Assembly (NCBI RefSeq): GCF_000003605.2
Contig: NW_003147955.1
Location: 1-23,712, forward strand
DNA length: 23,712 nucleotides
Origin: Saccoglossus kowalevskii
Lineage: Eukaryota; Hemichordata; Enteropneusta; Harrimaniidae
Direction of reading: 5' to 3'
In this document: positions 1 through 23,712 of the stretch, piece by piece
Layout: every line of letters starts with the position of its first letter
Numbering within the stretch: position 1 is the first letter of the stretch
Translations under genes and position numbers: made by a program
The notes under the pieces: generated by a model
The model's database searches: none
Seen by the model: the letters and a program-made list of their open reading frames with translations, nothing else
Told to the model about the DNA's origin: nothing

Positions 1-1337
1 ATAGTGTAATATGTTAACCTTATTTGTGACAATGATGCCTCGCGCGAGCTATGAAATCGTATAATTATTATTTCTTGTGAATCGTACAAGCTCACCTCTG
101 TTTGTTGGTTTCCTTTGATTAACAAATACTGACTGTGGAGAGTTCAGACTGAAAACGCAAGGCTCAAGAAACCAAAAAACAAAACCAAAATGACCCTCAA
201 TCTATGAAACACTCCAATTATTATCTTAAAACTATATTCCTATATTTCAAAGAGATGCACCCCAATCTACCCTATCTGCCCAGATTTGGCTCAACCACAT
301 GACGTAGTTTGAGGATTGCAAACGCGAAAGGGGGTTCTTGTAATTGTATTTTTTATTTTTTGAGAATCGTGTAAATATATTAACGGTATTTGTGACAATG
401 ATGCCTCGCGCGAGCTATGAAATCGTATAATTATTATTTCTTGTGAATCGTACAAGCTCACCTCTCTTTTCCGCGAATATTGAAATTAAACAAAGATCCA
501 CGAGGCAAGTTTAGTTGTACCGATCAAACGGTGTGCATTCCGCAGTTACTTGCAATGAATATTTGTTGAATTTAACGTACGAATGAGACATTTTCATATC
601 AGTAAACAACGGAACAGAGTTATGCTCAGATAAATGCAAATTTCGTAAAATTATCGTCAATCTGGCAGTTATTCGTGCAAGTTCACCTCTCTTTTCCGCG
701 AATATTGAAATTAAACAAAGATCCACGAGGCACGTTTAGTTGTACCGATCAGACGGTGTGCATTCCGCAGTTACTTGCAATGAATATTTGTTGAATTTAA
801 CGTACGAATGAGACATGTGCATATCAGTAAACAACGGAACAGAGTTATGCTCAGATAAATGCAAATTTCGTAAAATTATCGTCAATCTGGCAGTGATTCG
901 TGCAAGTTCACCTCTCTTTTCCGCGAATATTGAAATTAAACAAAGATCCACGAGGCACGTTTAGTTGTACCAATCAGACGGTGTGGATTCCGCAGTTACT
1001 TGCAATGAATATTTGTTGTATTCAACGTACGAATGAGACATGTGAATATCAGTAATCAACGAAGCAGAGTTATGCTCTGATAAATGCAAATTTTGTAAAA
1101 TTATCGTCAATCTGGCAGTGATTCGTGCAAGTTCACCTCTCTTTTCCGCGAATATTGAAATTAAACAAAGATTCACGAGGCAAGTTTAGTTGTACCGATC
1201 AGACGGTGTGCATTCCGCAGTTACTTGCAATGAATATTTGTTGAATTCAACGTACGAATGAGACATGTGCATATCAGTAAATAACGGAACAGAGTTATGC
1301 TCAGATAAATGCAAATTTCGTAAAATTATCGTCTATC
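1..1337. repeat. Spacer left of tRNA copy 1: tRNA-less unit plus 225-bp subarray
   Basis: The window opens inside a unit. Near position 100 the sequence CACCTCT jumps directly to GTTTGTTGGTTTCC, which normally lies about 573 bp further along, so one tRNA has been deleted here. A normal spacer half follows to about 440, then three copies of a 225-bp subrepeat and the start of a fourth that runs into tRNA copy 1. No gene is seen in this stretch. The same arrangement recurs at 12925-14260. Confidence 0.9.
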
Positions 1338-1343
1338 TGGCAG
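444..1343. repeat. 225-bp tandem subrepeat, four copies, three ending in tRNA stubs
   Basis: The 225-bp stretch that normally precedes a tRNA 3' end is repeated four times. The first three copies end with TGGCAG at 663-668, 888-893 and 1113-1118. These six bases are the complement of the last six of the tRNA (CTGCCA). The rest of the tRNA and the spacer are missing, and the sequence continues as T(G/T)ATTCGTGCAAG into the next copy. The fourth copy runs into the full tRNA at 1338, keeping exact 225-bp phase. The stubs lack both A and B boxes and cannot be genes. Confidence 0.92.
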
Positions 1344-1420
1344 CGGTGGGATTGGAACCCACGCCAGTCGAAATGACTGGTGCCTAAAACCAGCGCCTTA
1401 GACGACTCGACCACGCTACC
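1338..1420 (-). tRNA. tRNA-Leu-TAG: tRNA-Leu(UAG) copy 1, degenerate, possible pseudogene
   Basis: This is an 83-nt class II leucine tRNA with the UAG anticodon intact. It differs from the array consensus by C11 to T, C17 to T and G18 to C in the D arm, G57 to C in the T loop, and one extra base in the variable arm. G18 and the G57 site take part in the D-loop/T-loop elbow, and both polymerase III boxes are altered (TGGTCGAGTCG; GGTTCCAATCC). The longer variable arm can pair with the 3' strand of the anticodon stem. The TTTT stop is at 1322-1325. Copy 14 (14261-14343) is identical. Folding into a working leucine tRNA is doubtful. Confidence 0.85.
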
Positions 1421-2016
1421 CGACATTTTGGTAGCAGACATTGCCCAGGAACAAATCCAATTATTTTTGAATTAATTTCTAGATTTATTATTCGTGGTAT
1501 TTAAACCCAAATTCTGTACTAATGTACACATTTCATAGATCACAAACTAACAGTAACTTCAGAATTCTATCCCTTTCAGTTTCCCAACCCTTTTCCAAAA
1601 AAACCAAATAAGAAAATATACATCCCTTTCACACAATTTTGTAAAAAATGTATACCTATTTACAAACTAAATTTGTCATATATTGGTATAATGTGTTATG
1701 TCACATCAAACTGTTTTGTTGGTTTCCTTTGATTAACAAATACTGACTGTAGAGAGTTCAGACTGAAAACGCAAGGCTCAAGAAACAAAAAAACAAAACC
1801 AAAATGACCCTCAATCTATGAAACACTTTATTTTAACGTTATTTGTGACAATGATGCCTCGCGCGAGCTATGAAATCGTATAATTATTATTCTTTGTAAT
1901 TCATGCAAGTTCACATCTCTTTTCGCGAATATTGAAATTAAACAAAGATCCATGAGGCACGTTTAGTTGTACCGATCAGACGGTGTGCATTCCGCAGTTA
2001 CTTACAATGAATATTT

Positions 2017-2028
2017 GTTGAATTCAAC
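2017..2028. repeat. 12-bp palindrome GTTGAATTCAAC, once in most units
   Basis: This is a perfect 12-bp palindrome centred on an EcoRI site, about 90 bp beyond the tRNA 3' end. It recurs in most units; in several, such as around 1015, 566 and 6560, it is broken to GTTGAATTTAAC or GTTGTATTCAAC. No function can be assigned. It may be a protein-binding site or chance within a conserved repeat. Confidence 0.6.
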
Positions 2029-2085
2029 GTACGAATGAGACATGTGCATATCAGTAAACAACGGAACAGAGTTATGCTCAGATAA

Positions 2086-2093
2086 ATGCAAAT
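2086..2093 (+). promoter_or_regulatory. Octamer ATGCAAAT next to the tRNA terminator, in most units
   Basis: ATGCAAAT is the binding octamer of POU-domain factors such as Oct-1, known from histone H2B and vertebrate snRNA/Sec-tRNA enhancers. It lies 22-29 bp beyond the tRNA 3' end (example for copy 2) and recurs at the same place in nearly every unit. It is changed to ATTCAAAT before copies 19, 21 and 22. A regulatory role is not shown; the position downstream of a class II polymerase III gene is atypical. Confidence 0.3.
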
Positions 2094-2098
2094 TTTGT

Positions 2099-2102
2099 AA
2101 AA
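2099..2102 (-). terminator. RNA polymerase III TTTT stop of tRNA copy 2 (same place in all copies)
   Basis: The minus strand has TTTT beginning 13 nt past the tRNA 3' end (AAAA on the plus strand). Four T residues are the minimal polymerase III stop in animals. The signal is kept at exactly the same offset in all 24 units, for example 3041-3044, 4926-4929, 12269-12272 and 23656-23659. This implies precursor tRNAs with 3' trailers of about 12-16 nt. Confidence 0.85.
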
Positions 2103-2114
2103 TTATCGTCAATC

Positions 2115-2196
2115 TGGCAGCGGTGGGATTCGAACCCACGCCATCGAAATGACTGGTGCCTAAAACCAGCGCCTTAGACCGCTCGGCCACGCTACC
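2115..2196 (-). tRNA. tRNA-Leu-TAG: tRNA-Leu(UAG) copy 2, consensus sequence
   Basis: This gene makes the leucine tRNA that reads CUA codons (wobble may add CUG and others). The acceptor stem GGTAGCG pairs with CGCTGCC (one T-G wobble), and the discriminator base is A73, as required for leucine charging. The D arm carries G18G19. The anticodon stem CTGGT/ACCAG closes the loop TTTAGGC with anticodon TAG at 2160-2162. The long variable arm has a CAT/ATG stem and TTCG loop. The T arm is GTGGG-TTCGAAT-CCCAC. The A box is at 2179-2189 and the B box at 2126-2136, 43 bp apart in the gene. There is no intron and no encoded CCA. A TTTT stop lies at 2099-2102, 13 nt beyond the 3' end. Upstream sequence is AT-rich about 40 bp away without a clear TATA box. 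This exact sequence occurs nine times in the window. Confidence 0.97.
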
Positions 2197-2243
2197 TGAC
2201 ATTTTCGTAGCAGACATTGCCCAGGAACAAATCCAATTATTTT

Positions 2244-2255
2244 GAAATTAATTTC
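2244..2255. repeat. 12-bp palindrome GAAATTAATTTC, 48 bp upstream of the tRNA 5' end
   Basis: This perfect palindrome begins 48 bp upstream of the tRNA start and recurs in nearly all units. It is disturbed after copies 1 and 14 (TTGAATTAATTTC) and after copy 11 (AAATTAAATTC). It lies in the AT-rich region where TFIIIB contacts DNA upstream of tRNA genes or just beyond it, but no factor is recognised. Confidence 0.5.
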
Positions 2256-2290
2256 TAGATTTATTATTCGTGGTATTTAAACCCAAATTC

Positions 2291-2304
2291 TGTACTAACG
2301 TACA
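2291..2304. repeat. Inverted repeat TGTAC-N4-GTACA in each unit
   Basis: Five-base arms TGTAC and GTACA flank a four-base loop, TAAC or TAAT depending on the unit. The arms stay complementary in nearly all units while the loop varies (T to C), although S18 and S23 carry changes at its right edge. No function is assigned. Confidence 0.45.
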
Positions 2305-3056
2305 CATTTCATAGATCACAAACTAACAGTAACTTCAGAATTCTATCCCTTTCAGTTTCCCAACCCTTTTCCAAAAAGCTCAAATAAGAAAGTATACATC
2401 CCTTTCACAAAATTTTATAAAAAATGTATATTTATTTACAAACTAAATTTGTCATATATTGGTATAATGTGTTATGTCACATCAAACTGTTTTTTTTGTT
2501 TGGTTTCCTTTCATTAGCAAATACTGACTGTAGAGAGTTCAGACTGAAAACGCAAGGCTCAAGAAACCAAAAAACAAAACCAAAATGACCCTCAATCTAT
2601 GAAACACTCCAATTATTATCTTAACACTATTTTTCTATATTTCAAAGAGATGCACACCAATCTACCCTATCTGCCCAGATTTGGCTCAACCACATGACGT
2701 AGTTTGAGGATTGCAAACGAGAAAGGGGGTTCTTGTAATTGTATTTTTTATTTTTCAGTATCGTGCAAATATGTTAACGTTATTTGTGACAATGATGCCT
2801 CGCGCGAGCTATGAAATCGTATAATTATTATTTCTTGTGAATCGTACAAGCTCACCTCTCTTTACCGCGAATATTGAAATTAAACAAAGATCCACGAGGC
2901 AAGTTTAGTTGTACCGATCAGACGGTGTGCATTCCGCAGTTACTTGCAATGAATATTTGTTGAATTCAACGTACGAATGAGACATGTGCATATCAGTAAA
3001 CAACGGAACAGGTTTATGCTCAGATAAATGCAAATTTTGTAAAATTATCGTCAATC

Positions 3057-3138
3057 TGGCAGCGGTGGGATTCGAACCCACGCCATCGAAATGACTGGTG
3101 CCTAAAACCAGCGCCTTAGACCGCTCGGCCACGCTACC
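3057..3138 (-). tRNA. tRNA-Leu-TAG: tRNA-Leu(UAG) copy 3, consensus sequence
   Basis: This copy is identical to the consensus over all 82 nt, with intact A and B boxes and anticodon TAG. The TTTT stop is at 3041-3044. The 3' flank carries the variant CAGGTTTATGCTC (about 3008-3020), otherwise seen only beside copy 8. It is predicted to be functional. Confidence 0.97.
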
Positions 3139-4000
3139 TGACATTTTCGTAGCAGACATTGCCCAGGAACAAATCCAATTATTTTGAAATTAATTTCTAG
3201 ATTTAATATTCGTGGTATTTAAACCCAAATTCTGTACTAACGTACACATTTCATAGATCACAAACTAACAGTAACTTCAGAATTCTATCCCTTTCAGTTT
3301 CCCAACCCTTTTCCAAAAAGCTCAAATAAGAAAGTATACATCCCTTTCACAAAATTTTATAAAAAATGTATACTTATTTACAAACTAAATTTGTCATATA
3401 TTGGTATAATGTGTTATGTCACATCAAACTGTTTTTTTGTTTGGTTTCCTTTCATTAGCAAATACTGACTGTAGAGAGTTCAGACTGAAAACGCAAGGCT
3501 CAAGAAACCAAAAAACAAAACCAAAATGACCCTCAATCTATGAAACACTCCAATTATTATCTTAACACTATTTTTCTATATTTCAAAGAGATGCACACCA
3601 ATCTACCCTATCTGCCCAGATTTGGCTCAACCACATGACGTAGTTTGAGGATTGCAAACGAGAAAGGGGGTTCTTGTAATTGTATTTTTTATTTTTCAGT
3701 ATCGTGCAAATATGTTAACGTTATTTGTGACAATGATGCCTCGCGCGAGCTATGAAATCGTATTATTATTATTATTTCTTGTGAATCGTACAAGCTCACC
3801 TCTCTTTACCGCGAATATTGAAATTGAACGAAGATCCATGAGGCAAGTTTAGTTGTACCGATCAGACGGTGTGCATTCCGCAGTTACTTGCAATGAATAT
3901 TTGTTGAATTCAACGTACGAATGAGACATGTGCATATCAGTAAACAACGGAACAGAGTTATGCTCAGATAAATGCAAATTTTGTAAAATTATCGTCGTTC
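3139..4000. repeat. Spacer 3, full length
   Basis: No gene is seen. It is nearly the same as spacer 2, including TTTTTCAGTATCGTGC. It has an expanded TATTATTATTATT run near 3762 where other units have GTATAATTATT. That change removes a stop codon and opens a 66-codon hydrophobic reading frame from 3652, which is judged spurious. Confidence 0.9.
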
Positions 4001-4082
4001 TGGCAGCGGTGGGATTCGAACCCACGCCATCGAAATGACTGGTGCCTAAAACCAGCGCCTTAGACCGCTCGGCCACGCTACC
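4001..4082 (-). tRNA. tRNA-Leu-TAG: tRNA-Leu(UAG) copy 4, consensus sequence
   Basis: This copy is identical to the consensus over 82 nt, with both promoter boxes and all arms intact. The TTTT stop is at 3985-3988. The immediate 3' flank reads GTCGTTC rather than the common GTCAATC. It is predicted to be functional. Confidence 0.97.
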
Positions 4083-4941
4083 TGACATTTTCGTAGCAGA
4101 CATTGCCCAGGAACAAATCCAATTATTTTGAAATTAATTTCTAGATTTATTATTCGTGGTATTTAAACCCAAATTCTGTACTAACGTACACATTTCATAG
4201 ATCACAAACTAACAGTAACTTCAGAATTCTATCCCTTTCAGTTTCCCAACCCTTTTCCAAAAAGCTCAAATAAGAAAGTATACATCCCTTTCACAAAATT
4301 TTATAAAAAATGTATACCTATTTACAAACTAAATTTGTCATATATTGGTATAATGTGTTATGTCACATCAAACTGTTTTTTTTTTCGGTTTCCTTTCATT
4401 AGCAAATACTGACTGTAGAGAGTTCAGACTGAAAACGAACAGCTCAAGAAACCAAAAAACAAAACCAAAATGACCCCCAATCTATGAAACACTCCAATTA
4501 TTATCTTAAAACTATATTCTTATATTTCAAAGAGATGCACCCCAATCTACCCTATCTGCCCAGATTTGGCTCAAAGACATGACGTAGTTTGAGGCTTGCA
4601 AACGAGAGGGAGGGTTCTTGTAATTGTATTTTTTATTTTTTGAGAATCGTGTAAATATGTTAACGTTATTTGTGACAATGATGCCTCGCGCGAGCTATGA
4701 AATTGTATAATTATTATTCTTTGTAATTCGCGCAAGTTCACCTCTCTTTTCGCGAATATTGAAATTAAACAAAGATCCATGAGGCACGTTTAGTTGTACC
4801 GATCAGACGGTGTGCATTCCGCAGTTACTTACAATGAATATTTGTTGAATTCAACGTACGAATGAGACATGTGCATATCAGTAAACAACGGAACAGAGTT
4901 ATGCTCAGATAAATGCAAATTTTGTAAAATTATCGTCATTC
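4083..4941. repeat. Spacer 4, full length
   Basis: No gene is seen. It is the AAAATTTTATAAAAAATG type with a T-only tract and CGG at about 4375-4386. The variant GAAAACGAACAGCTC (near 4432) is otherwise found only in spacer 19, showing exchange between distant units. Its right end has the TTTGTAATTCGCGCAAG form. Confidence 0.9.
4278..4317. repeat. Inverted repeat GTATACAT / ATGTATAC around an AT-rich loop
   Basis: Perfect 8-base arms at 4278-4285 and 4310-4317 flank 24 bases containing AAAATTTTATAAAAA. This occurs in the spacers of the AAAGTATACAT type. In the other main type the left arm is ATATACAT and the right arm TTGTATAC, so the pairing is weaker. It could extrude as a hairpin or bind a dimeric protein; nothing else supports a role. 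Confidence 0.45.
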
Positions 4942-5023
4942 TGGCAGCGGTGGGATTCGAACCCACGCCATCGAAATGACTGGTGCCTAAAACCAGCGCC
5001 TTAGACCGCTCGGCCACGCTACC
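4942..5023 (-). tRNA. tRNA-Leu-TAG: tRNA-Leu(UAG) copy 5, consensus sequence
   Basis: This copy is identical to the consensus over 82 nt. Both promoter boxes are intact and the TTTT stop is at 4926-4929. It is predicted to be functional. Confidence 0.97.
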
Positions 5024-5717
5024 TGACATTTTCGTAGCAGACATTGCCCAGGAACAAATCCAATTTTTTTGAAATTAATTTCTAGATTTATTATTCGTGG
5101 TATTTAAACCCAAATTCTGTACTAACGTACACATTTCATAGATCACAAACTAACAGTAACTTCAGAATTCTATCCCTTTCAGTTTTCCCAACCCTTTTCC
5201 AAAAGCTCAATAAGAAGTATACATCCCTTTCACAAAATTTTATAAAAAATGTATACCTATTTACAAACTAAATTTGTCATATATTGGTATAATGTGTATG
5301 TCACATCAAACTGGTTTTTTTTTGGTTTCCTTTGATTAACAAATACTGACTGTAGAGAGTTCAGACTGAAAACGCAAGGCTCAAGAAACAAAAAAACAAA
5401 ACCAAAATGACCCTCAATCTATGAAACACTTTATTTTAACGTTATTTGTGACAATGATGCCTCGCGCGAGCTATGAAATCGTATAATTATTATTCTTTGT
5501 AATTCATGCAAGTTCACATCTCTTTTCGCGAATATTGAAATTAAACAAAGATCCATGAGGCACGTTTAGTTGTACCGATCAGACGGTGTGCATTCCGCAG
5601 TTACTTACAATGAATATTTGTTGAATTCAACGTACGAATGAGACATGTGCATATCAGTAAACAACGGAACAGAGTTATGCTCAGATAAATGCAAATTTTG
5701 TAAAATTATCGTCAATC
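5024..5717. repeat. Spacer 5, short form with ~164-bp deletion and clustered indels
   Basis: No gene is seen in these 694 bp. AAACACT at 5424 joins TTATTTTAACG, the same deletion junction as in spacer 1. The right part (from about 5327) matches 1730-2114 at an offset of 3603. The left part carries several one-base indels in homopolymers between about 5180 and 5300 (for example AAAAGCTCAATAAGAAGTATAC and GTGTATGTCAC). These look like sequence errors or recent decay. Confidence 0.9.
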
Positions 5718-5799
5718 TGGCAGCGGTGGGATTCGAACCCACGCCATCGAAATGACTGGTGCCTAAAACCAGCGCCTTAGACCGCTCGGCCACGCTACC
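5718..5799 (-). tRNA. tRNA-Leu-TAG: tRNA-Leu(UAG) copy 6, consensus sequence
   Basis: This copy is identical to the consensus over 82 nt, with the TTTT stop at 5702-5705. It lies in the same short-unit context as copy 2, from which (or to which) the block was copied. It is predicted to be functional. Confidence 0.97.
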
Positions 5800-6657: not shown

Positions 6658-6739
6658 TGGCAGCGGTGGGATTCGAACCCACGCCATCGAAATGACTGGT
6701 GCCTAAAACCAGCGCCTTAGACCGCTCGGCCACGCTACC
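6658..6739 (-). tRNA. tRNA-Leu-TAG: tRNA-Leu(UAG) copy 7, consensus sequence
   Basis: This copy is identical to the consensus over 82 nt, with the TTTT stop at 6642-6645. It corresponds to copy 13 in the 5.63-kb duplication, but copy 13 has a B-box change that this copy lacks. It is predicted to be functional. Confidence 0.97.
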
Positions 6740-7594: not shown

Positions 7595-7676
7595 TGGCAG
7601 CGGTGGGATTCGAACGCACGCCATCGAAATGACTGGTGCCTAAAACCAGCGCCTTAGACTGCTCGGCCACGCTACC
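7595..7676 (-). tRNA. tRNA-Leu-TAG: tRNA-Leu(UAG) copy 8, two changes at conserved positions
   Basis: The 82-nt copy has the anticodon intact. G52 to C in the T stem makes a C-C mismatch with C62 and alters the first base of the B box (GCGTTCG context). G18, normally invariant in the D loop, is A. Copy 9 shares both changes. The TTTT stop is at 7579-7582. Transcription and folding are probably reduced; it may be a pseudogene. Confidence 0.88.
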
Positions 7677-8531: not shown

Positions 8532-8613
8532 TGGCAGCGGTGGGATTCGAACGCACGCCATCGAAATGGCTGGTGCCTAAAACCAGCGCCTTAGACTGCT
8601 CGGCCACGCTACC
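8532..8613 (-). tRNA. tRNA-Leu-TAG: tRNA-Leu(UAG) copy 9, three changes, possible pseudogene
   Basis: This copy shares G52 to C and G18 to A with copy 8 and adds T44 to C where the variable arm begins. The anticodon is intact. The TTTT stop is at 8516-8519. It is a tandem sister of copy 8, so the damaged form has itself been amplified. Confidence 0.87.
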
Positions 8614-9468: not shown

Positions 9469-9550
9469 TGGCAGCGGTGGGATTCGAACCCACGCCATCG
9501 AAATGACTGGTGCCTAAAACCAGAGCCTAAGACCACTCGGCCACGCTACC
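9469..9550 (-). tRNA. tRNA-Leu-TAG: tRNA-Leu(UAG) copy 10, three changes in the 5' half
   Basis: The changes are C17 to T, A21 to T and G26 to T; the T arm and B box are consensus. The A box becomes TGGCCGAGTGG, which fits the standard consensus even better than the array version. A21 is normally conserved because it stacks in the tRNA core. The TTTT stop is at 9453-9456. It is probably transcribed, but stability is uncertain. Confidence 0.88.
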
Positions 9551-10406: not shown

Positions 10407-10488
10407 TAGCAGCGGTGGGATTCGAACCCACGCCATCGAAATGACTGGTGCCTAAAACCAGCGCCTTAGACCGCTCGGCCACGCTACC
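10407..10488 (-). tRNA. tRNA-Leu-TAG: tRNA-Leu(UAG) copy 11, single acceptor-stem change
   Basis: The only change is C72 to T, turning the first acceptor pair into G1-T72 (G-U in RNA). Both promoter boxes are consensus, and the TTTT stop is at 10391-10394. The gene is probably transcribed; a G-U first pair could affect 5' processing or charging. Confidence 0.93.
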
Positions 10489-11343: not shown

Positions 11344-11425
11344 TGGCAGCGGTGGGATTAGAACCCATGCCATCGAAATGACTGGTGCCTAAAACCAGCG
11401 CCTTAGACCGCTCGGCCACGCTACC
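11344..11425 (-). tRNA. tRNA-Leu-TAG: tRNA-Leu(UAG) copy 12, T-arm changes
   Basis: G57 to T in the T loop changes the B box to GGTTCTAATCC, and G49 to A makes an A-C mismatch at the base of the T stem. The remainder is consensus. The TTTT stop is at 11328-11331. TFIIIC binding is probably weakened. Confidence 0.9.
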
Positions 11426-12284: not shown

Positions 12285-12924
12285 TGGCAGCGGTGGGATT
12301 CCAACCCACGCCATCGAAATGACTGGTGCCTAAAACCAGCGCCTTAGACCGCTCGGCCACGCTACCTGACATTTTGGTAGCAGACATTGCCCAGGAACAA
12401 ATACAATTATTTTGAAATTAATTTCTAGATTCATTATTCGTGGTATTTAAACCCAAATTCTGTACTAATGTACACATTTCATAGATCACAAACTAACAGT
12501 AACTTCAGAATTCTATCCCTTTCAGTTTCCCAACCTTTTTCCAAAAAACCCATATAAGAAAATATACATCCCTTTCACAAAATTTTATAAAAAATGTATA
12601 CCTATTTACAAACTAAATTTGTCATATATTGGTATAATGTGTTATGTCACATCAAACTGTTTTGTTGGTTTCCTTTGATTAACAAATACTGACTGTGGAG
12701 ATTTCAGAGTGAAAACGCAAGGCTCAAGAAACCAAAAAACAAAACTAAAATGACCCTCAATCTATGAAACACTCCAATTTTTATCTTAAAACTATATTCC
12801 TATATTTCAAAGAGATGCACCCCAAACTACCCTATCTGCCCAGATTTGGCTCAACGACATGACGTAGTTTGAGGCTTGCAAACGAGAGGGAGGGTTCTTG
12901 TAATTGTATTTTTTATTTTTGAGA
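11457..12924. repeat. Higher-order duplicate of about 5830-7297 (offset ~5627)
   Basis: Shared markers are GTATAACTATTTAC, the T6G6 tract, GGAGTTTTTTG, ATACAATTATTTTG after the tRNA, ACCCATATA(G/A)G and AAAACTAAAATG. Differences include the B-box change in copy 13 and the loss of identity after 12924. The spacing equals six repeat units. Confidence 0.85.
12285..12366 (-). tRNA. tRNA-Leu-TAG: tRNA-Leu(UAG) copy 13, B-box C56 to G change
   Basis: The single change makes the T loop TTGGAAT and the B box GGTTGGAATCC. C56 pairs with G19 in the tRNA elbow and is the most critical B-box base. The same C56-to-G change in yeast SUP4 is the classic mutation that blocks TFIIIC binding (established knowledge). 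This copy is probably silent despite 81 of 82 consensus bases. The TTTT stop is at 12269-12272. Confidence 0.9.
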
Positions 12925-14260
12925 ATAGTGTAAATATGTTAACCTTATTTGTGACAATGATGCCTCGCGCGAGCTATGAAATCGTATAATTATTATTTCT
13001 TGTGAATTGTACAAGCTCACCTCTGTTTGTTGGTTTCCTTTGATTAACAAATACTGACTGTGGAGAGTTCAGACTGAAAACGCAAGGCTCAAGAAACCAA
13101 AAAACAAAACCAAAATGACCCTCAATCTATGAAACACTCCAATTATTATCTTAAAACTATATTCCTATATTTCAAAGAGATGCACCCCAATCTACCCTAT
13201 CTGCCCAGATTTGGCTCAACCACATGACGTAGTTTGAGGATTGCAAACGCGAAAGGGGGTTCTTGTAATTGTATTTTTTATTTTTTGAGAATCGTGTAAA
13301 TATATTAACGGTATTTGTGACAATGATGCCTCGCGCGAGCTATGAAATCGTATAATTATTATTTCTTGTGAATCGTACAAGCTCACCTCTCTTTTCCGCG
13401 AATATTGAAATTAAACAAAGATCCACGAGGCAAGTTTAGTTGTACCGATCAAACGGTGTGCATTCCGCAGTTACTTGCAATGAATATTTGTTGAATTTAA
13501 CGTACGAATGAGACATTTTCATATCAGTAAACAACGGAACAGAGTTATGCTCAGATAAATGCAAATTTCGTAAAATTATCGTCAATCTGGCAGTTATTCG
13601 TGCAAGTTCACCTCTCTTTTCCGCGAATATTGAAATTAAACAAAGATCCACGAGGCACGTTTAGTTGTACCGATCAGACGGTGTGCATTCCGCAGTTACT
13701 TGCAATGAATATTTGTTGAATTTAACGTACGAATGAGACATGTGCATATCAGTAAACAACGGAACAGAGTTATGCTCAGATAAATGCAAATTTCGTAAAA
13801 TTATCGTCAATCTGGCAGTGATTCGTGCAAGTTCACCTCTCTTTTCCGCGAATATTGAAATTAAACAAAGATCCACGAGGCACGTTTAGTTGTACCAATC
13901 AGACGGTGTGGATTCCGCAGTTACTTGCAATGAATATTTGTTGTATTCAACGTACGAATGAGACATGTGAATATCAGTAATCAACGGAGCAGAGTTATGC
14001 TCTGATAAATGCAAATTTTGTAAAATTATCGTCAATCTGGCAGTGATTCGTGCAAGTTCACCTCTTTTCCGCGAATATTGAAATTAAACAAAGATTCACG
14101 AGGCAAGTTTAGTTGTACCGATCAGACGGTGTGCATTCCGCAGTTACTTGCAATGAATATTTGTTGAATTCAACGTACGAATGAGACATGTGCATATCAG
14201 TAAATAACGGAACAGAGTTATGCTCAGATAAATGCAAATTTCGTAAAATTATCGTCTATC
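12367..14260. repeat. Spacer 13: tRNA-less unit plus second 225-bp subarray
   Basis: These 1894 bp contain no complete gene. Positions 12367-12924 match spacer 7. From 12925 the sequence matches the window start. A junction at about 13024 (CACCTCTG joined to TTTGTTGGTTTCC) marks the loss of about 573 bp, including a tRNA. The 225-bp subrepeats with stubs follow. Confidence 0.9.
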
Positions 14261-14266
14261 TGGCAG
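13369..14266. repeat. Second 225-bp subrepeat array with three tRNA stubs
   Basis: This is the counterpart of 444-1343 at an offset of 12925. The stubs TGGCAG lie at 13588-13593, 13813-13818 and 14038-14043, followed by the full tRNA at 14261. The last subrepeat is 223 bp because CACCTCTCTTTTCC has lost CT near 14062. Otherwise only isolated differences are visible (for example CAACGGAGC against CAACGAAGC), so the copying is recent. Confidence 0.92.
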
Positions 14267-14343
14267 CGGTGGGATTGGAACCCACGCCAGTCGAAATGAC
14301 TGGTGCCTAAAACCAGCGCCTTAGACGACTCGACCACGCTACC
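14261..14343 (-). tRNA. tRNA-Leu-TAG: tRNA-Leu(UAG) copy 14, degenerate, identical to copy 1
   Basis: This 83-nt copy has C11 to T, C17 to T, G18 to C, G57 to C and the extra variable-arm base, exactly as in copy 1. Anticodon TAG is intact. The TTTT stop is at 14245-14248. Its duplication with no further change shows a recent event rather than selection. It is probably a pseudogene. Confidence 0.85.
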
Positions 14344-15199
14344 CGACATTTTGGTAGCAGACATTGCCCAGGAACAAATCCAATTATTTTTGAATTAATT
14401 TCTAGATTTATTATTCGTGGTATTTAAACCCAAATTCTGTACTAATGTACACATTTCATAGATCACAAACTAACAGTAACTTCAGAATTCTATCCCTTTC
14501 AGTTTCCCAACCCTTTTCCAAAAAAACCAAATAAGAAAATATACATCCCTTTCACACAATTTTGTAAAAAATGTATACCTATTTACAAACTAAATTTGTC
14601 ATATATTGGTATAATGTGTTATGTCACATCAAACTGTTTTGTTGGTTTCCTTTGATTAACAAATACTGACTGTAGAGAGTTCAGACTGAAAACGCAAGGC
14701 TCAAGAAACAAAAAAACAAAACCAAAATGACCCTCAATCTATGAAACACTCCAATTATTATCTTAAAACTATATTCCTATATTTCAAAGAGATGCACCCC
14801 AATCTACCCTATCTGCCCAGATTTGGCTCAACGACATGACGTAGTTTGACGCTTGCAAACGAGAGGGGGGGTTCTTGTAATTGTATTTTTTATTTTTTGA
14901 GAATCGTGTAAATATGTTAGCGTTCTTTGTGACAATGATGCCTCGCGCGAGCTATGAAATCGTATAATTATTATTTCTTGTGAATCGTACAAGCTCACCA
15001 CTCTTTACCGCGAATATTGAAATTAAACAAAGATCCACGAGGCAAGTTTAGTTGTAGCGACCAGACGGTGTGCATTCCGCAGTTACTTGCAATGAATATT
15101 TGTTGAATTCAACGTACGAATGAGACATGTGCATATCAGTAAACAACGGAACAGAGTTATGCTCAGATAAATGCAAATTTTGTAAAATTATCGTCATTC
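14344..15199. repeat. Spacer 14, full length
   Basis: No gene is seen. It begins like spacer 1 (AACCAAATAAG, CACACAATTTTGTAAAAAATG, AAGAAACAAAAAAAC) but retains the region that spacer 1 lost. It has the private variant ATGTTAGCGTTCTTTGTG near 14914. Confidence 0.9.
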
Positions 15200-15281
15200 T
15201 GGCAGCGGTGGGATTCGAACCCACGCCATCGAAATGACTGGTGCCTAAAACCAGCGCCTTAGACCGCTCGGCCACGCTACC
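15200..15281 (-). tRNA. tRNA-Leu-TAG: tRNA-Leu(UAG) copy 15, consensus sequence
   Basis: This copy is identical to the consensus over 82 nt, with the TTTT stop at 15184-15187. Intact boxes suggest it is functional. Confidence 0.97.
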
Positions 15282-16136: not shown

Positions 16137-16218
16137 TGGCAGTGGTGGGATTCGAACCCACGCCATCGAAATGACTGGTGCCTAAAACCTGCGCCTTAGA
16201 CCGCTCGGCCACGCTACC
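16137..16218 (-). tRNA. tRNA-Leu-TAG: tRNA-Leu(UAG) copy 16, two stem mismatches
   Basis: G67 to A gives a C6-A67 mismatch in the acceptor stem, and T28 to A gives an A-A mismatch with A42 in the anticodon stem. The promoter boxes are consensus, and the TTTT stop is at 16121-16124. It is probably transcribed, but the product would be less stable. Confidence 0.9.
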
Positions 16219-17074: not shown

Positions 17075-17156
17075 TGGCGGCGGTGTGATTCGAAGCCACG
17101 CCATCGAAATGACTGGTGCCTAAAACCAGCGCCTTAGACCGCTCGGCCACGCTACC
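17075..17156 (-). tRNA. tRNA-Leu-TAG: tRNA-Leu(UAG) copy 17, damaged T arm, probable pseudogene
   Basis: G53 to C and C62 to A destroy the two T-stem pairs that close the loop and change the B box to GCTTCGAATCA. T69 to C gives an A4-C69 mismatch in the acceptor stem. The D arm, anticodon arm and variable arm are consensus, and the TTTT stop is at 17059-17062. It is probably neither transcribed efficiently nor folded. Confidence 0.85.
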
Positions 17157-18030: not shown

Positions 18031-18112
18031 TGGCAGCGGTGGGATTCGAACCCACGCCATCGAAATGACTGGTGCCTAAAACCAGCGCCTTAGACCGCTC
18101 GGCCACGCTACC
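18031..18112 (-). tRNA. tRNA-Leu-TAG: tRNA-Leu(UAG) copy 18, consensus sequence
   Basis: This copy is identical to the consensus over 82 nt, with the TTTT stop at 18015-18018. The 3' flank is ATCATCTATC, like that beside copies 1, 7, 13 and 14. It is predicted to be functional. Confidence 0.97.
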
Positions 18113-18968
18113 TGACATTTTCGTAGCAGACATTGCCCAGGAACAAATACAATTACTTTGAAATTAATTTCTAGATTCATTATTCGTGGTATTTAAACCC
18201 AAATTCTGTACTAATGTACGCATTTCATAGATCACAAACTAACAGTAACTTCAGAATTCTATCCCTTTCAGTTTCCCAACCCTTTTCCAAAAAACCCAAA
18301 TAAGAAAGTATACATCCCTTTCACAACATTTTGTAAACATTGTATACCTATTTACAAACTTAATTTGTCATATATTGGTATAATGTGTTATGTCACATCA
18401 AAATGTTTTGTTGGTTTCCTTTGATTAACAAATACTGACTGTGGAGAGTTCAGACTGAGAACGCAAGGCTCAAGAAACCAAAAAACAAAACCAATATGAC
18501 CCTCAATCTATGAAACACTCCAATTATTATCTTAAAACTATATTCCTATATTTCAAAGAGATGCACCCCAAACTACCCTATCTGCCCAGATTTGGCTCAA
18601 CGACATGACGTAGTTTGAGGCTTGCAAACGAGAGGGAGGGTTCTTGTAATTGTATTTTTTATTTGTTGAGAATCGTGTAAATATGTTAACGTTATTTGTG
18701 GCAATGATGCCTCGCGCGAGCTATGAAATCGTATAATTATTATTTCTTGTGAATCGTACAAGCTCACCTCTCTTTACCGCGAATATTGAAATTAAACAAA
18801 GATCCACGAGGCAAGTTTGGTTGTACCGATCAGACGGTGTGCATTCCGCAGTTACTTGCAATGAATATTTGTTGAATTCAACGTACTAATGAGCCATGTG
18901 CATATCAGTTAACAACGGAACAGAGTTATGCTCAGATAAATTCAAATTTCGTAAAATTATCGTCAGTC
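18113..18968. repeat. Spacer 18, full length
   Basis: No gene is seen. The left part matches spacer 8 (ACTGAGAACGC, ACCAATATGACC; offset 10436). From about 18620 it matches spacer 21 (TATTTGTTGAG, TTTGTGGCAATG; offset 2828), so it is a clear mosaic. The octamer before copy 19 is changed to ATTCAAAT. Confidence 0.9.
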
Positions 18969-19050
18969 TGGCAGCGGTGGGATTCGAACCCACGCCATCG
19001 AAATGACAGGTGCCTAAAACCAGCGCCTTAGACCGCTCGGCCACGCTACC
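18969..19050 (-). tRNA. tRNA-Leu-TAG: tRNA-Leu(UAG) copy 19, anticodon-stem mismatch
   Basis: The single change is A42 to T, giving a T28-T42 mismatch in the anticodon stem. The promoter boxes are consensus, and the TTTT stop is at 18953-18956. The 5' flank CTGTCATTTTCATAGC is also variant. Copy 22 is identical, including the flank. Confidence 0.93.
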
Positions 19051-19905
19051 TGTCATTTTCATAGCAGACATTGCCCAGGAACAAATCCAATTATTTTGAA
19101 ATTAATTTCTAGATTTATTATTCGTGGTATTTAAACCCAAATTCTGTACTAACGTACACATTTCATAGATCACAAACTAACAGTAACTTCAGAATTCTAT
19201 CCCTTTCAGTTTCCCAACCCTTTTCCAAAAAGCTCAAATAAGAAAGTATACATCTCTTTCACAAAATTTTATAAAAAATGTATACCTATTTACAAACTAA
19301 ATTTGTCATATATTGGTATAATGTGTTATGTCACATCAAACTGTTTTGTTGGTTTCCTTTGATTAACAAATACTGACTGTAGAGAGTTCAGACTGAAAAC
19401 GAACAGCTCAAGAAACCAAAAAACAAAACCAAAATGACCCTCAATCTATGAAACACTCCAATTATTATCTTAACACTATATTCCTATATTTCAAAGAGAT
19501 GCACCCCAATCTACCCTATCTGCCCAGATTTGGCTCAACCACATGACGTAGTTTGAGGATTGCAAACGAGAGGGAGGGTTCTTGTAATTGTATATTTTAT
19601 TTTTGAGAATAGTGTAAATATGTTAACGTTATTTGTAACAATGAAGCCCCGCACGAGCTATGAAATCGTATAATTATTATTTCTTGTGAATCGTACAAGC
19701 TCACCTCTCTTTACCGTGAATATTGAAATTAAACAAAGATCCACGAGGCAAGTTTAGTTGTACCGATCAGACGGTGTGCATTCCGCAGTTACTTGCAATG
19801 AATATTTGTTGAATTCAACGTACGAATGAGACATGTGCATATCAGTAAGCAACGGAACAGAGTTATGCTCAGATAAATGCAAATTTTGTAAAATTATCGT
19901 CAATC
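19051..19905. repeat. Spacer 19, full length
   Basis: No gene is seen. It is the AAAATTTTATAAAAAATG type but with the short GTTTTGTTGG tract, and it shares GAAAACGAACAGC with spacer 4. The CpG palindrome is lost (GAAGCCCCGCACGAGC at about 19643), as in spacer 22. Confidence 0.9.
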
Positions 19906-19987
19906 TGGCAGCGGTGGGATTCGAACCCACGCCATCGAAATTACTGGTGCCTAAAACCAGCGCCTTAGACCGCTCGGCCACGCTACC
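19906..19987 (-). tRNA. tRNA-Leu-TAG: tRNA-Leu(UAG) copy 20, variable-arm change
   Basis: The single change is C to A at the base of the variable-arm stem (CAT/ATG becomes AAT/ATG), costing one pair. The promoter boxes are consensus, and the TTTT stop is at 19890-19893. It is probably functional, though the leucine variable arm matters for recognition in some organisms. Confidence 0.94.
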
Positions 19988-20430
19988 TGACATTTTCGTA
20001 GCAGACATTGCCCAGGAACAAATCCAATTATTTTGAAATTAATTTCTAGATTTATTATTCGTGGTATTTAAACCCAAATTCTGTACTAACGTACACATTT
20101 CATAGATCACAAACTAACAGTAACTTCAGAATTCTATCCCTTTCAGTTTCCCAACCCTTTTCCAAAAAGCTCAAATAAGAAAGTATACATCCCTTTCACA
20201 AAATTTTATAAAAAATGTATACCTATTTACAAACTAAATTTGTCATATATTGGTATAATGTGTTATGTCACATCAAACTGTTTTTTTTGGGGGGGGGGTT
20301 TCCTTTCATTAGCAAATACTGACTGTAGAGAGTTCAGACTGAAAACGCAAGGCTCAAGAAACCAAAAAACAAAACCAAAATGACCCTCAATCTATGAAAC
20401 ACTCCAATTATTATCTTAAAACTATATTCC

Positions 20431-20551
20431 TATATTTCAAAGAGATGCACCCCAATCTACCCTATCTGCCCAGATTTGGCTCAACGACATGACGTAGTTT
20501 GAGGCTTGCAAACGAGAGGGAGGGTTCTTGTAATTGTATTTTTTATTTTTT
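20431..20551 (+). other. Speculative polymerase-III-like signal set on the plus strand of the spacer
   Basis: On the strand opposite the tRNAs, TATATTT (20431-20437) lies 40 bp before an A-box-like TGGCTCAACGA (20477-20487). GGTTC, the first half of a B box (20523-20527), lies at about the A-to-B distance of a tRNA gene. Two T6 runs (20539-20544 and 20546-20551) follow. The set is kept in almost every full unit and absent from the short units. The B-box second half (GANTCC) is missing, and no tRNA fold is evident. It may be a decayed tRNA relic or coincidence. Confidence 0.15.
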
Positions 20552-20587
20552 GAGAATCGTGTAAATATGTTAACGTTATTTGTGGCA

Positions 20588-20601
20588 ATGATGCCTCGCG
20601 C
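20588..20601. repeat. CpG-rich palindrome CTCGCGCGAG, one per unit
   Basis: A perfect 10-bp palindrome with three CpG steps lies in otherwise AT-rich sequence about 250 bp from the next tRNA 3' end. It is present in nearly all units (first at 39-48) but changed to CCCGCACGAG in spacers 19, 22 and 23. It may bind a protein or be a methylation site; no function is recognised. Confidence 0.45.
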
Positions 20602-20852
20602 GAGCTATGAAATCGTATAATTATTATTTCTTGTGAATCGTACAAGCTCACCTCTCTTTACCGCGAATATTGAAATTAAACAAAGATCCACGAGGCAAGT
20701 TTGGTTGTACCGATCAGACGGTGTGCATTCCGCAGTTACTTGCAATGAATATTTGTTGAATTCAACGTACTAATGAGCCATGTGCATATCAGTTAACAAC
20801 GGAACAGAGTTATGCTCAGATAAATTCAAATTTCGTAAAATTATCGTCAGTC

Positions 20853-20934
20853 TGGCAGCGGTGGGATTCGAACCCACGCCATCGAAATGACTGGTGCCTA
20901 AAACCAGCGCCTTAGACCGCTCGGCCACGCTACC
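20853..20934 (-). tRNA. tRNA-Leu-TAG: tRNA-Leu(UAG) copy 21, consensus sequence
   Basis: This copy is identical to the consensus over 82 nt, with the TTTT stop at 20837-20840. Its flanks resemble copies 19 and 22 (CTGTCATTTTCG; octamer changed to ATTCAAAT), but the A42 change is absent. It is predicted to be functional. Confidence 0.97.
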
Positions 20935-21796
20935 TGTCATTTTCGTAGCAGACATTGCCCAGGAACAAATCCAATTATTTTGAAATTAATTTCTAGATTT
21001 ATTATTCGTGGTATTTAAACCCAAATTCTGTACTAACGTACACATTTCATAGATCACAAACTAACAGTAACTTCAGAGTTCTATTCCTTTTAGTTTCCCA
21101 ACCCTTTTCCTAAAAGCTCAAATAAGAAAGTATACATCCCTTTCACAAAATTTTATAAAAAATGTATACCTATTTACAAACTAAATTTGTCATATATTGG
21201 TATAATGTGTTATGTCACATCAAACTGGTTTTTTTTTGGTTTCCTTTCATTAGCAAATACTGACTGTAGAGAGTTCAGACTGAAAACGCAAGGCTCAAGA
21301 AACCAAAAAAAACAAACCAAAATGACCCTCAATCTATGAAAACACTCCAATTATTATCTTTAACACTATATTCTTATATTTCAAAGAGATGCACCCCAAT
21401 CTACCCTATCTGCCCAGATTTGGCTCAACGACATGACGTAGTTTGAGGCTTGCAAACGAGAGGGAGGGTTCTTGTAATTGTATTTTTTATTTGTTGAGAA
21501 TCGTGTAAATATGTTAACGTTATTTGTGGCAATGATGCCTCGCGCGAGCTATGAAATCGTATAATTATTATTTCTTGTGAATCGTACAAGCTCACCTCTC
21601 TTTACCGCGAATATTGAAATTAAACAAAGATCCACGAGGCAAGTTTGGTTGTACCGATCAGACGGTGTGCATTCCGCAGTTACTTGCAATGAATATTTGT
21701 TGAATTCAACGTACTAATGAGCCATGTGCATATCAGTTAACAACGGAACAGAGTTATGCTCAGATAAATTCAAATTTCGTAAAATTATCGTCAGTC
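20935..21796. repeat. Spacer 21, full length, with small indels
   Basis: No gene is seen. It has irregular homopolymer changes at 21077-21115 (AGAGTTCTATTCCTTTTAG) and 21302-21362 (AACCAAAAAAAACAAACC, GAAAACACTCC, TCTTTAACAC). From about 21450 it matches 18620 onward. Confidence 0.9.
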
Positions 21797-22250
21797 TGGC
21801 AGCGGTGGGATTCGAACCCACGCCATCGAAATGACAGGTGCCTAAAACCAGCGCCTTAGACCGCTCGGCCACGCTACCTGTCATTTTCATAGCAGACATT
21901 GCCCAGGAACAAATCCAATTATTTTGAAATTAATTTCTAGATTTATTATTCGTGGTATTTAAACCCAAATTCTGTACTAACGTACACATTTCATAGATCA
22001 CAAACTAACAGTAACTTCAGAATTCTATCCCTTTCAGTTTCCCAACCCTTTTCCAAAAAGCTCAAATAAGAAAGTATACATCCCTTTCACAAAATTTTAT
22101 AAAAAATGTATACCTATTTACAAACTAAATTTGTCATATATTGGTATAATGTGTTATGTCACATCAAACTGTTTTGTTGGTTTCCTTTGATTAACAAATA
22201 CTGACTGTAGAGAGTTCAGACTGAAAACGCAAGGCTCAAGAAACCAAAAA
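21450..22250. repeat. Duplicate of about 18620-19420 (offset 2828)
   Basis: Both segments share TATTTGTTGAG, GTGGCAATG, GTTTGGTTGTACC, ACTAATGAGCC, CAGTTAACAAC, AAATTCAAAT, the A42-to-T tRNA and its 5' flank. Similarity continues less perfectly to GAAGCCCCGCACGAGC at 19643 and 22471. The boundaries are approximate. Confidence 0.8.
21797..21878 (-). tRNA. tRNA-Leu-TAG: tRNA-Leu(UAG) copy 22, anticodon-stem mismatch
   Basis: A42 to T gives a T28-T42 mismatch; the sequence is identical to copy 19, including the variant 5' flank CTGTCATTTTCATAGC. The TTTT stop is at 21781-21784. It is part of a duplication at an offset of 2828 (three units). Confidence 0.93.
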
Positions 22251-22734
22251 ACAAAACCAAAATGACCCTCAATCTATGAAACACTCCAATTATTATCTTA
22301 ACACTATATTCCTATATTTCAAAGAGATGCACCCCAATCTACCCTATCTGCCCAGATTTGGCTCAACGACATGACGTAGTTTGAGGCTTGCAAACGAGAG
22401 GGAGGGTTCTTGTATTTGTATTTTTTATTTTTTGAGAATCGTGTAAATATGTTAACGTTATTTGTAACAATGAAGCCCCGCACGAGCTATGAAATCGTAT
22501 AATTATTATTTCTTGTGAATCGTACAAGCTCACCTCTCTTTACCGTGAATATTGAAATTAAACAAAGATCCACGAGGCAAGTTTAGTTGTACCGATCAGA
22601 CGGTGTGCATTCCGCAGTTACTTACAATGAATATTTGTTGAATTCAACGTACGAATGAGACATGTGCATATCAGTAAACAACGGAACAGTGTTATGCTCA
22701 CATAAATGCAAATTTTGTAAAATTATCGTCAATC
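21879..22734. repeat. Spacer 22, full length
   Basis: No gene is seen. It has the left half of spacer 19 type, the short GTTTTGTTGG tract and the lost CpG palindrome (GAAGCCCCGCACGAGC). The right end has CAGTGTTATGCTCACATAAATG, shared only with the end of spacer 23. Confidence 0.9.
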
Positions 22735-22816
22735 TGGCAGCGGTGGGATTCTAACCCACGCCATCGAAATGACTGGTGCCTAAAACCAGCGCCTTAGACC
22801 GCTCGGCCACGCTACC
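22735..22816 (-). tRNA. tRNA-Leu-TAG: tRNA-Leu(UAG) copy 23, B-box C56 to A change
   Basis: The T loop is TTAGAAT and the B box GGTTAGAATCC; everything else is consensus. C56 is invariant in tRNAs (pairs with G19) and central to TFIIIC binding, so this copy is probably silent. The TTTT stop is at 22719-22722. Copy 24 shares the change. Confidence 0.9.
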
Positions 22817-23671
22817 TGACATTTTCGTAGCAGACATTGCCCATGAACAAATCCAATTATTTTGAAATTAATTTCTAGATTTATTATTCGTGGTATTTAA
22901 ACCCAAATTCTGTACTAACGTTACACATTTCATAGTCACAAACTAACAGTAATTTCAGAATTCTATTCCTTTCAGTTCCCAACCCTTTTCAAAAAGCTCA
23001 AATAAGGGAAATATACATCCCTTTCACAACATTTGTAAACATTGTATACCTATTTATAAACTAAATTTGTCATATATTGGTATAATGTGTTATGTCACAT
23101 CAAACTGTTTTGTTGGTTTCCTTTGATTAACAAATACTGACTGTGGAGAGTTCAGACTGAAAACGCAAGGCTCAAGAAACCAAAAAAACAAACCCAAAAT
23201 GACCCTCAATCTATGAAACACTCCAATTATTATCTTAAAACTATATTCCTATATTTCAAAGAGATGCACCCCAATCTACCCTATCTGCCCAGATTTGGCT
23301 CAACGACATGACGTAGTTTGAGGCTTGCAAACGAGAGGGAGGGTTCTTGTAATTGTATTTTTTATTTTTTGAGAATCGTGTAAATATGTTAACGTTATTT
23401 GTAACAATGATGCCCCGCACGAGCTATGAAATCGTATAATTATTATTTCTTGTGAATCGTACAAGCTCACCTCTCTTTACCGTGAATATTGAAATTAAAC
23501 AAAGATCCACGAGGCAAGTTTAGTTGTACCGATCAGACGGTGTGCATTCCGCAGTTACTTACAATGAATATTTGTTGAATTCAACGTACGAATGAGACAT
23601 GTGCATATCAGTAAACAACGGAACAGTGTTATGCTCACATAAATGCAAATTTTGTAAAATTATCGTCAATC
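22817..23671. repeat. Spacer 23, full length, clustered indels
   Basis: No gene is seen. One-base gains and losses cluster between about 22919 and 23040 (ACGTTACACATTTC, CATAGTCACAAAC, TCAGTTCCCAACC, TTTTCAAAAAGC, AATAAGGGAAATATAC, AACATTTGTAAAC). The right half matches spacer 22 with ATGATGCCCCGCACGAGC. Confidence 0.9.
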
Positions 23672-23712
23672 TGGCAGCGGTGGGATTCTAACCCACGCCA
23701 TCGAAATGACTG
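23672..23712 (-). tRNA. tRNA-Leu-TAG: tRNA-Leu(UAG) copy 24, 3' part only, cut by window edge
   Basis: Only the last 41 nt (variable arm, T arm, 3' acceptor strand) lie in the window. The T loop has C56 to A as in copy 23. The TTTT stop is at 23656-23659. The 5' half, including the anticodon, lies beyond the right edge. Confidence 0.9.

Follow-up and report, generated by a model that had tools for sequence, protein, structure and literature searches.

Why should a whole contig of an animal genome consist of a single transfer RNA (tRNA) gene repeated over and over, and are these copies of use to the cell? The stretch in question, referred to here as the window, is the entire 23,712-bp contig NW_003147955.1 (C3828) of the hemichordate Saccoglossus kowalevskii, one of 4,830 contigs in a genome total of 572,110,611 bases. 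It is a tandem array of tRNA-Leu(UAG) genes, one per ~937-bp unit. We consider it likely that this array provides a redundant supply of working tRNA-Leu(UAG), with a consensus held by selection and with many copies broken at any moment. This reading draws on sequence comparisons: judged by how mutations are distributed over the copies, the array genes seem to be really used.

Organisation of the tRNA-Leu(UAG) array

ARAGORN identified 23 complete tRNA-Leu genes with the anticodon TAG, all on the minus strand and spanning positions 1338 to 22816, and the same 23 genes were recovered with the Rfam model RF00005 (38.7-59.1 bits, compared to a gathering score of 29). A 24th gene is truncated by the right edge of the window (23672-23712), and the count of at least 24 genes given in an earlier, sequence-only reading of this contig is correct if this fragment is included. 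Distances from gene start to gene start were 937-956 bp in 19 of 22 cases, 776 and 777 bp in two and 1,976 bp in one, the last unit containing a 225-bp sub-repeat four times. The array of one gene per ~937-bp unit described in that reading is therefore real, mostly at the spacing given. Both contig ends fall within the array, confirming that it continues past both edges. Pairwise identity among the 19 full-length units ranged from 94.1 to 99.5%. Head-to-tail order, even spacing and homogeneous spacers are features that the array shares with tandem tRNA arrays in animals and protists. The features of the window are as follows.

1-23712, minus strand: whole contig, head-to-tail array of ~937-bp units with one tRNA-Leu(UAG) each
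1338-1420, minus: tRNA-Leu(UAG) copy 1, 83 nt, insertion and several substitutions
2115-2196, minus: tRNA-Leu(UAG) copy 2, identical to the consensus
3057-3138, minus: tRNA-Leu(UAG) copy 3, identical to the consensus
4001-4082, minus: tRNA-Leu(UAG) copy 4, identical to the consensus
4942-5023, minus: tRNA-Leu(UAG) copy 5, identical to the consensus
5718-5799, minus: tRNA-Leu(UAG) copy 6, identical to the consensus
6658-6739, minus: tRNA-Leu(UAG) copy 7, identical to the consensus
7595-7676, minus: tRNA-Leu(UAG) copy 8, defective in a D-loop invariant base and a T-stem pair
8532-8613, minus: tRNA-Leu(UAG) copy 9, defective in a D-loop invariant base and a T-stem pair
9469-9550, minus: tRNA-Leu(UAG) copy 10, three substitutions outside the checked stems and invariant bases
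10407-10488, minus: tRNA-Leu(UAG) copy 11, a single pair-keeping substitution
11344-11425, minus: tRNA-Leu(UAG) copy 12, defective in the T stem and B box
12285-12366, minus: tRNA-Leu(UAG) copy 13, B-box invariant C altered
14261-14343, minus: tRNA-Leu(UAG) copy 14, 83 nt, identical in sequence to copy 1
15200-15281, minus: tRNA-Leu(UAG) copy 15, identical to the consensus
16137-16218, minus: tRNA-Leu(UAG) copy 16, two stem pairs broken
17075-17156, minus: tRNA-Leu(UAG) copy 17, three stem pairs broken
18031-18112, minus: tRNA-Leu(UAG) copy 18, identical to the consensus
18969-19050, minus: tRNA-Leu(UAG) copy 19, mismatch in the anticodon stem
19906-19987, minus: tRNA-Leu(UAG) copy 20, one substitution in the variable arm
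20853-20934, minus: tRNA-Leu(UAG) copy 21, identical to the consensus
21797-21878, minus: tRNA-Leu(UAG) copy 22, mismatch in the anticodon stem
22735-22816, minus: tRNA-Leu(UAG) copy 23, B-box invariant C altered
23672-23712, minus: 24th tRNA-Leu(UAG), 3' half, truncated by the contig end
443-1343, minus: four tandem 225-bp sub-repeats of the 3'-flank segment of the unit
13368-14266, minus: second set of four tandem 225-bp sub-repeats
1-1827, minus: higher-order block, shared at 99.7% identity with 12925-14750 and with part of contig C4366
12925-14750, minus: higher-order block, second copy

Integrity of the copies was assessed from stem pairs outside the variable arm and from standard invariant bases and box positions. 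In the window, nine copies equal the consensus, three differ without a break in the checked pairs and invariant bases, nine break at least one pair or invariant base, and two carry an inserted base. The earlier description of the array as pure has to be qualified for the condition of its genes (9 of 23 with a broken pair or invariant base, 2 of 23 with an inserted base).

The block at 1-1827 recurs at 12925-14750 and a third time on contig C4366, and is, judged by its sequence identity, a recent higher-order duplication. The 225-bp sub-repeats end in the last bases of the tRNA and have the look of units that lost their remainder by deletion between short stretches of matching sequence. A run of four T begins 13 nt downstream of the tRNA in all 23 window copies. 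The anticodon arm contains an internal TTTT as well, a possible weak polymerase III stop that is shared by a solitary tRNA-Leu(UAG) gene described below. Within the unit only the tRNA passed the Rfam cut-offs; matches to mascRNA were below threshold, overlapped the tRNA and were discounted. Protein-coding content was rejected for the 17 open reading frames (71-84 amino acids), of which the 12 starting with ATG cross the tRNA and the other five lie in the 225-bp sub-repeats. Viral origin was likewise rejected, since an exact 50-mer from the sub-repeat had no match in viral contigs and a 2.95-kb stretch had none in phages.

To follow the array through the genome we used a 30-mer from the spacer. 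Allowing up to three mismatches, it matched 56 times, exclusively on C3828, C4366 and C257 (reversed control: 0). C4366 (21,665 bp) is a second Leu(UAG) array contig with 21 tRNA copies. Within this assembly the copies exceed the normal handful that would have refuted the sequence-only reading. On the 889-kb scaffold C257 the matches sit at 616-621 kb, where a 2,831-base run of N, which may be an assembly gap, is flanked on both sides by the unit grading into unit-free DNA. In the simplest reading, these flanking units are the edges of the Leu(UAG) array, and C3828 and C4366 belong between them. The edge pieces are 93.0-95.7% identical to the unit consensus; both edge tRNAs are defective and one is also altered in its anticodon, as expected where homogenisation is weakest. 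Assuming that these edges belong to the same array, copies that are alike within it and more decayed at its margins correspond to concerted evolution of the kind known from ribosomal DNA (rDNA). The left-edge copy (L030 6055-6136) combines a leucine tRNA body with the anticodon TCG (Arg) and is probably a decayed copy. A leucine body with the anticodon TAT (Ile) also occurs in one array copy on C4366 (reverse-complement position 12893). A search with a 943-bp sequence, in which 27 of 37 candidates were scored, added a relic at 886.9 kb of C257 and otherwise yielded matches to the tRNA only. A dispersed tRNA-derived repeat (short interspersed element) was rejected because unit copies are not dispersed, the 30-mer being confined to the two array contigs and to 616-621 kb of C257.

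We propose that each ~937-bp unit would act as a self-contained polymerase III gene, whose A and B boxes lie within the tRNA and whose T4 run starts at +13, and that it is presumably transcribed. Unequal exchange or gene conversion, as known from rDNA, would add and remove copies and keep them alike, which we infer from the identity of the units, the sub-repeats and the higher-order blocks. As any single copy would be dispensable, it could accumulate mutations, which would accrue faster within the tRNA and the 20 bp upstream of it, probably because of heavy transcription. Selection on the total output of good tRNA would keep defective versions rare and prevent their spread, as the variant frequencies described below suggest.

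Variant frequencies and probable constraint in several arrays

Exact B-box patterns occurred 592 and 95 times in the genome, compared to 1 and 0 occurrences of the reversed control. Positions in the 592-match survey were taken from the first 100 matches listed. Rows were observed for at least seven further anticodons (CAG, AAG, CAA, CAU, AGG, UGG and GCC). Leu(CAG) arrays with a ~1,015-bp unit lie on C873 and C3573 (18 and 12 copies by ARAGORN), and a Leu(AAG) array with a ~418-bp unit lies on C336. On the 61,167-bp contig C341, intron-bearing Leu(CAA) alternates with Met(CAU) in a ~603-bp unit, as seen in two 10-kb pieces; this is the longest tRNA row among those observed. Pro(AGG) and Pro(UGG) alternate in a 2.5-kb piece of C117, and Gly(GCC) accounts for 13 tRNAs in total in 1.1-1.6-kb pieces of C925, C2828, C2549 and C3871. 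Several tRNA types are thus found in rows of their own, those for Pro and Gly being known from pieces of 1.1-2.5 kb only. Furthermore, 47 scored matches to 5S rRNA are arranged in rows on C3485, C2212 and C3801, with two main unit lengths of ~1,138 and ~1,579 bp. The singling out of one leucine isoacceptor as unusual in the sequence-only reading does not hold, given rows for seven other anticodons in the same genome. The consensus of the Leu(CAG) unit (C3573, C873) includes a second, decayed leucine tRNA and related flank beside the good copy, and looks like an old dimer.

The consensus of the Leu(UAG) array is identical in 82 of 82 bases to a solitary gene on C3161, whose flanks are unmatched. 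The 3' flanks of the UAG and AAG arrays are 74% identical (95 of 128 aligned positions; score 109, compared to a maximum of 46 in 300 shuffles), and kinship of the 5' flanks was undetected by the same comparison (score 32, shuffled best 41). The two tRNA consensuses differ at 1 of 82 positions, which is the first anticodon base. One array seems to have given rise to the other, or a common unit to both, via an anticodon change. Since the 3' flanks have diverged and the tRNA differs at a single position, the tRNA was apparently held while the flank changed. Compared to the array, the relic close to the end of C257 shows differences at 10 of 82 sites in the tRNA and 31 of 139 in the flank. Flank identity between the relic and each of the two arrays is 74%, over a longer match for AAG (157/212) than for UAG (134/182). 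If half of the change in the relic flank occurred on the array side, the probability of zero change in 82 tRNA bases is ~6e-5.

To compare gene and spacer within arrays we examined variant frequencies. In 38 Leu(UAG) units the tRNA was not less variable than the spacer (25 of 82 versus 190 of 859 variable sites). Singletons were in significant excess in the tRNA of the UAG array (p = 0.0014) and not in that of the CAG array (p = 0.13), which led us to tests pooled over four arrays, namely UAG, CAG, CAA+Met and AAG, with the Gly, Pro and 5S arrays left out. Units of deviating length were removed before counting: 5 of 43 for UAG (outside 925-965 bp), 1 of 28 for CAG (outside 980-1050 bp), 2 of 31 for CAA+Met (outside 585-615 bp, in the 20 kb that were read out of the 61-kb contig) and 0 of 23 for AAG. 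The gene columns of CAA take in a 44-base intron. The frequency cut-off was not preset; 6 copies were used first, then a scan from 2 to 10, then 3 and 5 for pooling, and variants in under 3 copies were classed as rare.

Variants that have reached many copies were depleted in the genes. At least 5 copies shared a variant at 0 of 82 gene sites versus 54 of 859 spacer sites in the UAG array (p = 0.0009 when only variable sites are compared), 1/86 versus 40/929 in CAG, 0/201 versus 4/402 in CAA+Met and 0/82 versus 22/336 in AAG (pooled Mantel-Haenszel odds ratio 0.064, p = 2.4e-4). At a cut-off of at least 3 copies the pooled depletion was weaker (odds ratio 0.42, p = 0.0017), and among variable sites the other arrays pointed in the same direction as UAG (CAG p = 0.09, CAA+Met p = 0.008, AAG p = 0.024). 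Depletion persisted within strata of array, GC and CpG, with odds ratios of 0.057 (p = 3e-5) at 5 or more copies and 0.36 (p = 1e-4) at 3 or more. Rare variants, conversely, were in excess at gene sites: 21/82 versus 98/859 in UAG, 21/86 versus 146/929 in CAG, 44/201 versus 52/402 in CAA+Met and 19/82 versus 47/336 in AAG (pooled odds ratio 1.98, p = 2.3e-7; 1.75, p = 4.5e-5 with strata). The 20 bp upstream of the gene showed more rare variants than the far spacer (26/100 versus 207/1533, p = 0.0016), and common variants were undepleted there (14/100 versus 137/1533). This pattern fits a combination of transcription-linked mutation and purifying selection. Work by Thornlow (2018), as cited in PMC8113476, attributes raised mutation in tRNA flanks to transcription and describes strong selection on the gene in other genomes.

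Several observations weigh against a selected, redundant supply. In the first test, on 19 window units, variable sites were not fewer in the tRNA (17/82) than in the spacer (136/856), nor were shared tRNA variants significantly fewer (p = 0.17). The CAG array taken alone was non-significant not only for singletons but also at every cut-off (p = 0.08-0.62 at 3 to 10 copies, 0.39 at 2), and its good copy differs from the sole solitary CAG gene observed by one substitution and one shifted base. When the arrays were taken singly, per-site depletion reached significance at 5 copies in UAG and AAG alone (p = 0.011 each), and at 3 copies in CAA+Met alone (p = 0.044). The upstream difference in rare variants appeared in one of six flank bins, and the far spacer sites derive almost entirely from three arrays. 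All p-values are nominal, because the copies are related and assembly errors are possible; several one-base tRNA indels in C4366 resemble such errors, and some rare variants may be of this kind. The other two solitary UAG genes examined differ from the array consensus at 1 and 3 positions, and gene conversion templated by other loci could maintain the tRNA sequence even if the array itself were not under selection. Finally, 23 of the 44 complete copies, counted over both Leu(UAG) contigs, appear defective: 17 break at least one checked pair or invariant base (one of them bearing a compensating insertion and deletion) and 6 are changed in length, beside 14 that equal the consensus and 7 that differ without such a break. 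This implies that purging is weak per copy.

Alternative explanations

The least improbable alternative is that the array is a passive satellite that happened to hold a tRNA and was amplified by recombination alone, the tRNA having no role. The defective majority of copies, the satellite-like sub-repeats and higher-order blocks and the decay of both scaffold-edge tRNAs are what one might expect of it. Such a satellite would let the tRNA drift like the rest of the unit, however, and this is not what was found: the consensus tRNA is unchanged where homologous flank has diverged by 22-26%, tRNA variants stay uncommon over the four pooled arrays, and several other tRNAs and 5S genes are laid out likewise. 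Conservation and variant frequencies together thus disfavour the earlier suggestion of a satellite that captured a tRNA gene.

By analogy with the human repeat at 1q23.3, for which this has been proposed, the array might instead serve chiefly as a chromatin boundary, a fragile site or an organiser of the nucleus, and only secondarily supply tRNA. A barrier function of tRNA repeats has published precedent (PMC4041453); we regard such a primary role as unlikely here.

Amplification for a special demand in decoding CUA (or CUG), also raised in the sequence-only reading, is very unlikely. The 44 complete copies over two contigs would suit it, but Leu(CAG), Leu(AAG), Leu(CAA), Met, Pro and Gly tRNAs stand in rows too, and the Leu(CAA)+Met row is longer, which leaves a particular demand for the CUA-reading tRNA unsupported. 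In two actin exons one of the ten Leu codons is CUA, a sample too small to decide. That the assembler multiplied one or few genes, which would refute the sequence-only reading, is hardly credible: C3828, C4366, C873 and C3573 do start and stop within the repeat and the two scaffold edges of the array are separated by a run of N, but full-length units differ by 0.5-6% and by indels, the array is present on two contigs and two scaffold edges, and independent arrays of other tRNAs show the same behaviour.

Significance and comparison with known systems

A redundant supply of tRNA-Leu(UAG) under selection therefore remains our preferred reading. It adds another genome with several isoacceptor-specific arrays, indicating that the layout recurs. 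From the many copies of an array, tRNA mutation, decay and upkeep can be followed inside one genome, where population samples are otherwise used. It also cautions that small contigs of pure repeat can harbour many of an animal's tRNA genes. We advance as possible, and no more than tentatively, a wider view in which this is an animal with many tRNA and 5S genes in long isoacceptor-specific arrays that record transcription-linked hypermutation and the purging of spreading mutations. If so, the arrays would be mutation-buffering devices, tandem arrays could stand in for population samples when mutation and selection in tRNAs are measured, and the Leu(UAG) and Leu(AAG) pair would document how one array was born of another through a single anticodon change.

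Among the titles listed by a literature search on tandem tRNA genes in hemichordates, nine concern mitochondrial genomes or tRNAs and three whole genomes, weak evidence that the case is unreported. Tandem tRNA arrays are described as uncommon outside Entamoeba (PMC4041453, PMC11067881), and tRNA clusters as having arisen many times in eukaryotes (PMC2888827). Zebrafish, Drosophila and plants resemble S. kowalevskii in having many copies of tRNA-Leu or other tRNAs and tandem clusters (PMC3706591, PMC2888827, PMC7919458, PMC12652284), and tandem tRNA genes in bilaterians are therefore not new as such. Zebrafish clusters differ in that neighbours are mostly heterogeneous, and plant clusters in that their scoring used a 1-kb limit and, in part, identity. 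A within-array variant test such as the one made here is not evident in the consulted passages of these cluster papers.

In humans there is one 7.3-kb tRNA repeat, a variable-number tandem repeat at 1q23.3 (PMC4041453). Like the present arrays it is an animal tandem tRNA repeat of many units, but its 7.3-kb units are GC-rich, contain several tRNAs and are bound by CTCF (PMC4041453), whereas the units found here measure ~0.3-1.0 kb, hold one or two genes and have spacers of 34-37% GC (four arrays).

The mitochondrial contig C4830 of S. kowalevskii was also inspected. It carries trnL, K, V, ND1, trnI, COX1 (on the opposite strand), C, Q, A, N, Y and COX2, and its gene order near COX1 is unusual. 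We take two of its genes to be ND1 and COX2 from their motifs, and in these, judged by eye, ATA would specify Ile, AAA Lys and a single AGA Ser. COX1 contains seven in-frame TGA codons. In mitochondrial mode ARAGORN made 10 tRNA calls in 4.3 kb, one of them weak, so that about nine tRNAs are present, compared to two mitochondrial tRNAs in the cnidarian Hydractinia (PMC11067881). Such a number is in keeping with a bilaterian, although sponges too possess mitochondrial tRNAs.

In Hydractinia the arrayed genes comprise the tRNAs of all 20 amino acids together with four spliceosomal RNAs, U3 and rRNAs (PMC11067881). Even spacing, tens to hundreds of near-identical copies and the arraying of both rRNAs and tRNAs are shared with the genome studied here; the two differ in that Hydractinia is a cnidarian with tRNAs for all 20 amino acids arrayed, whereas part of the nuclear tRNA set was surveyed here. 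Entamoeba possesses 25 kinds of array unit (PMC2652664), each with one to few tRNA genes and homogenised as here, for which the authors presume concerted evolution. It is a protist with nearly all tRNA genes arrayed, making up more than 10% of its genome, and E. histolytica and E. dispar have short tandem repeats between genes, whereas only the 225-bp sub-repeats were noted here. The likeness to the tRNA arrays of Entamoeba pointed out in the sequence-only reading nevertheless stands, and altogether the layout of the S. kowalevskii arrays resembles the type published for Hydractinia and Entamoeba.

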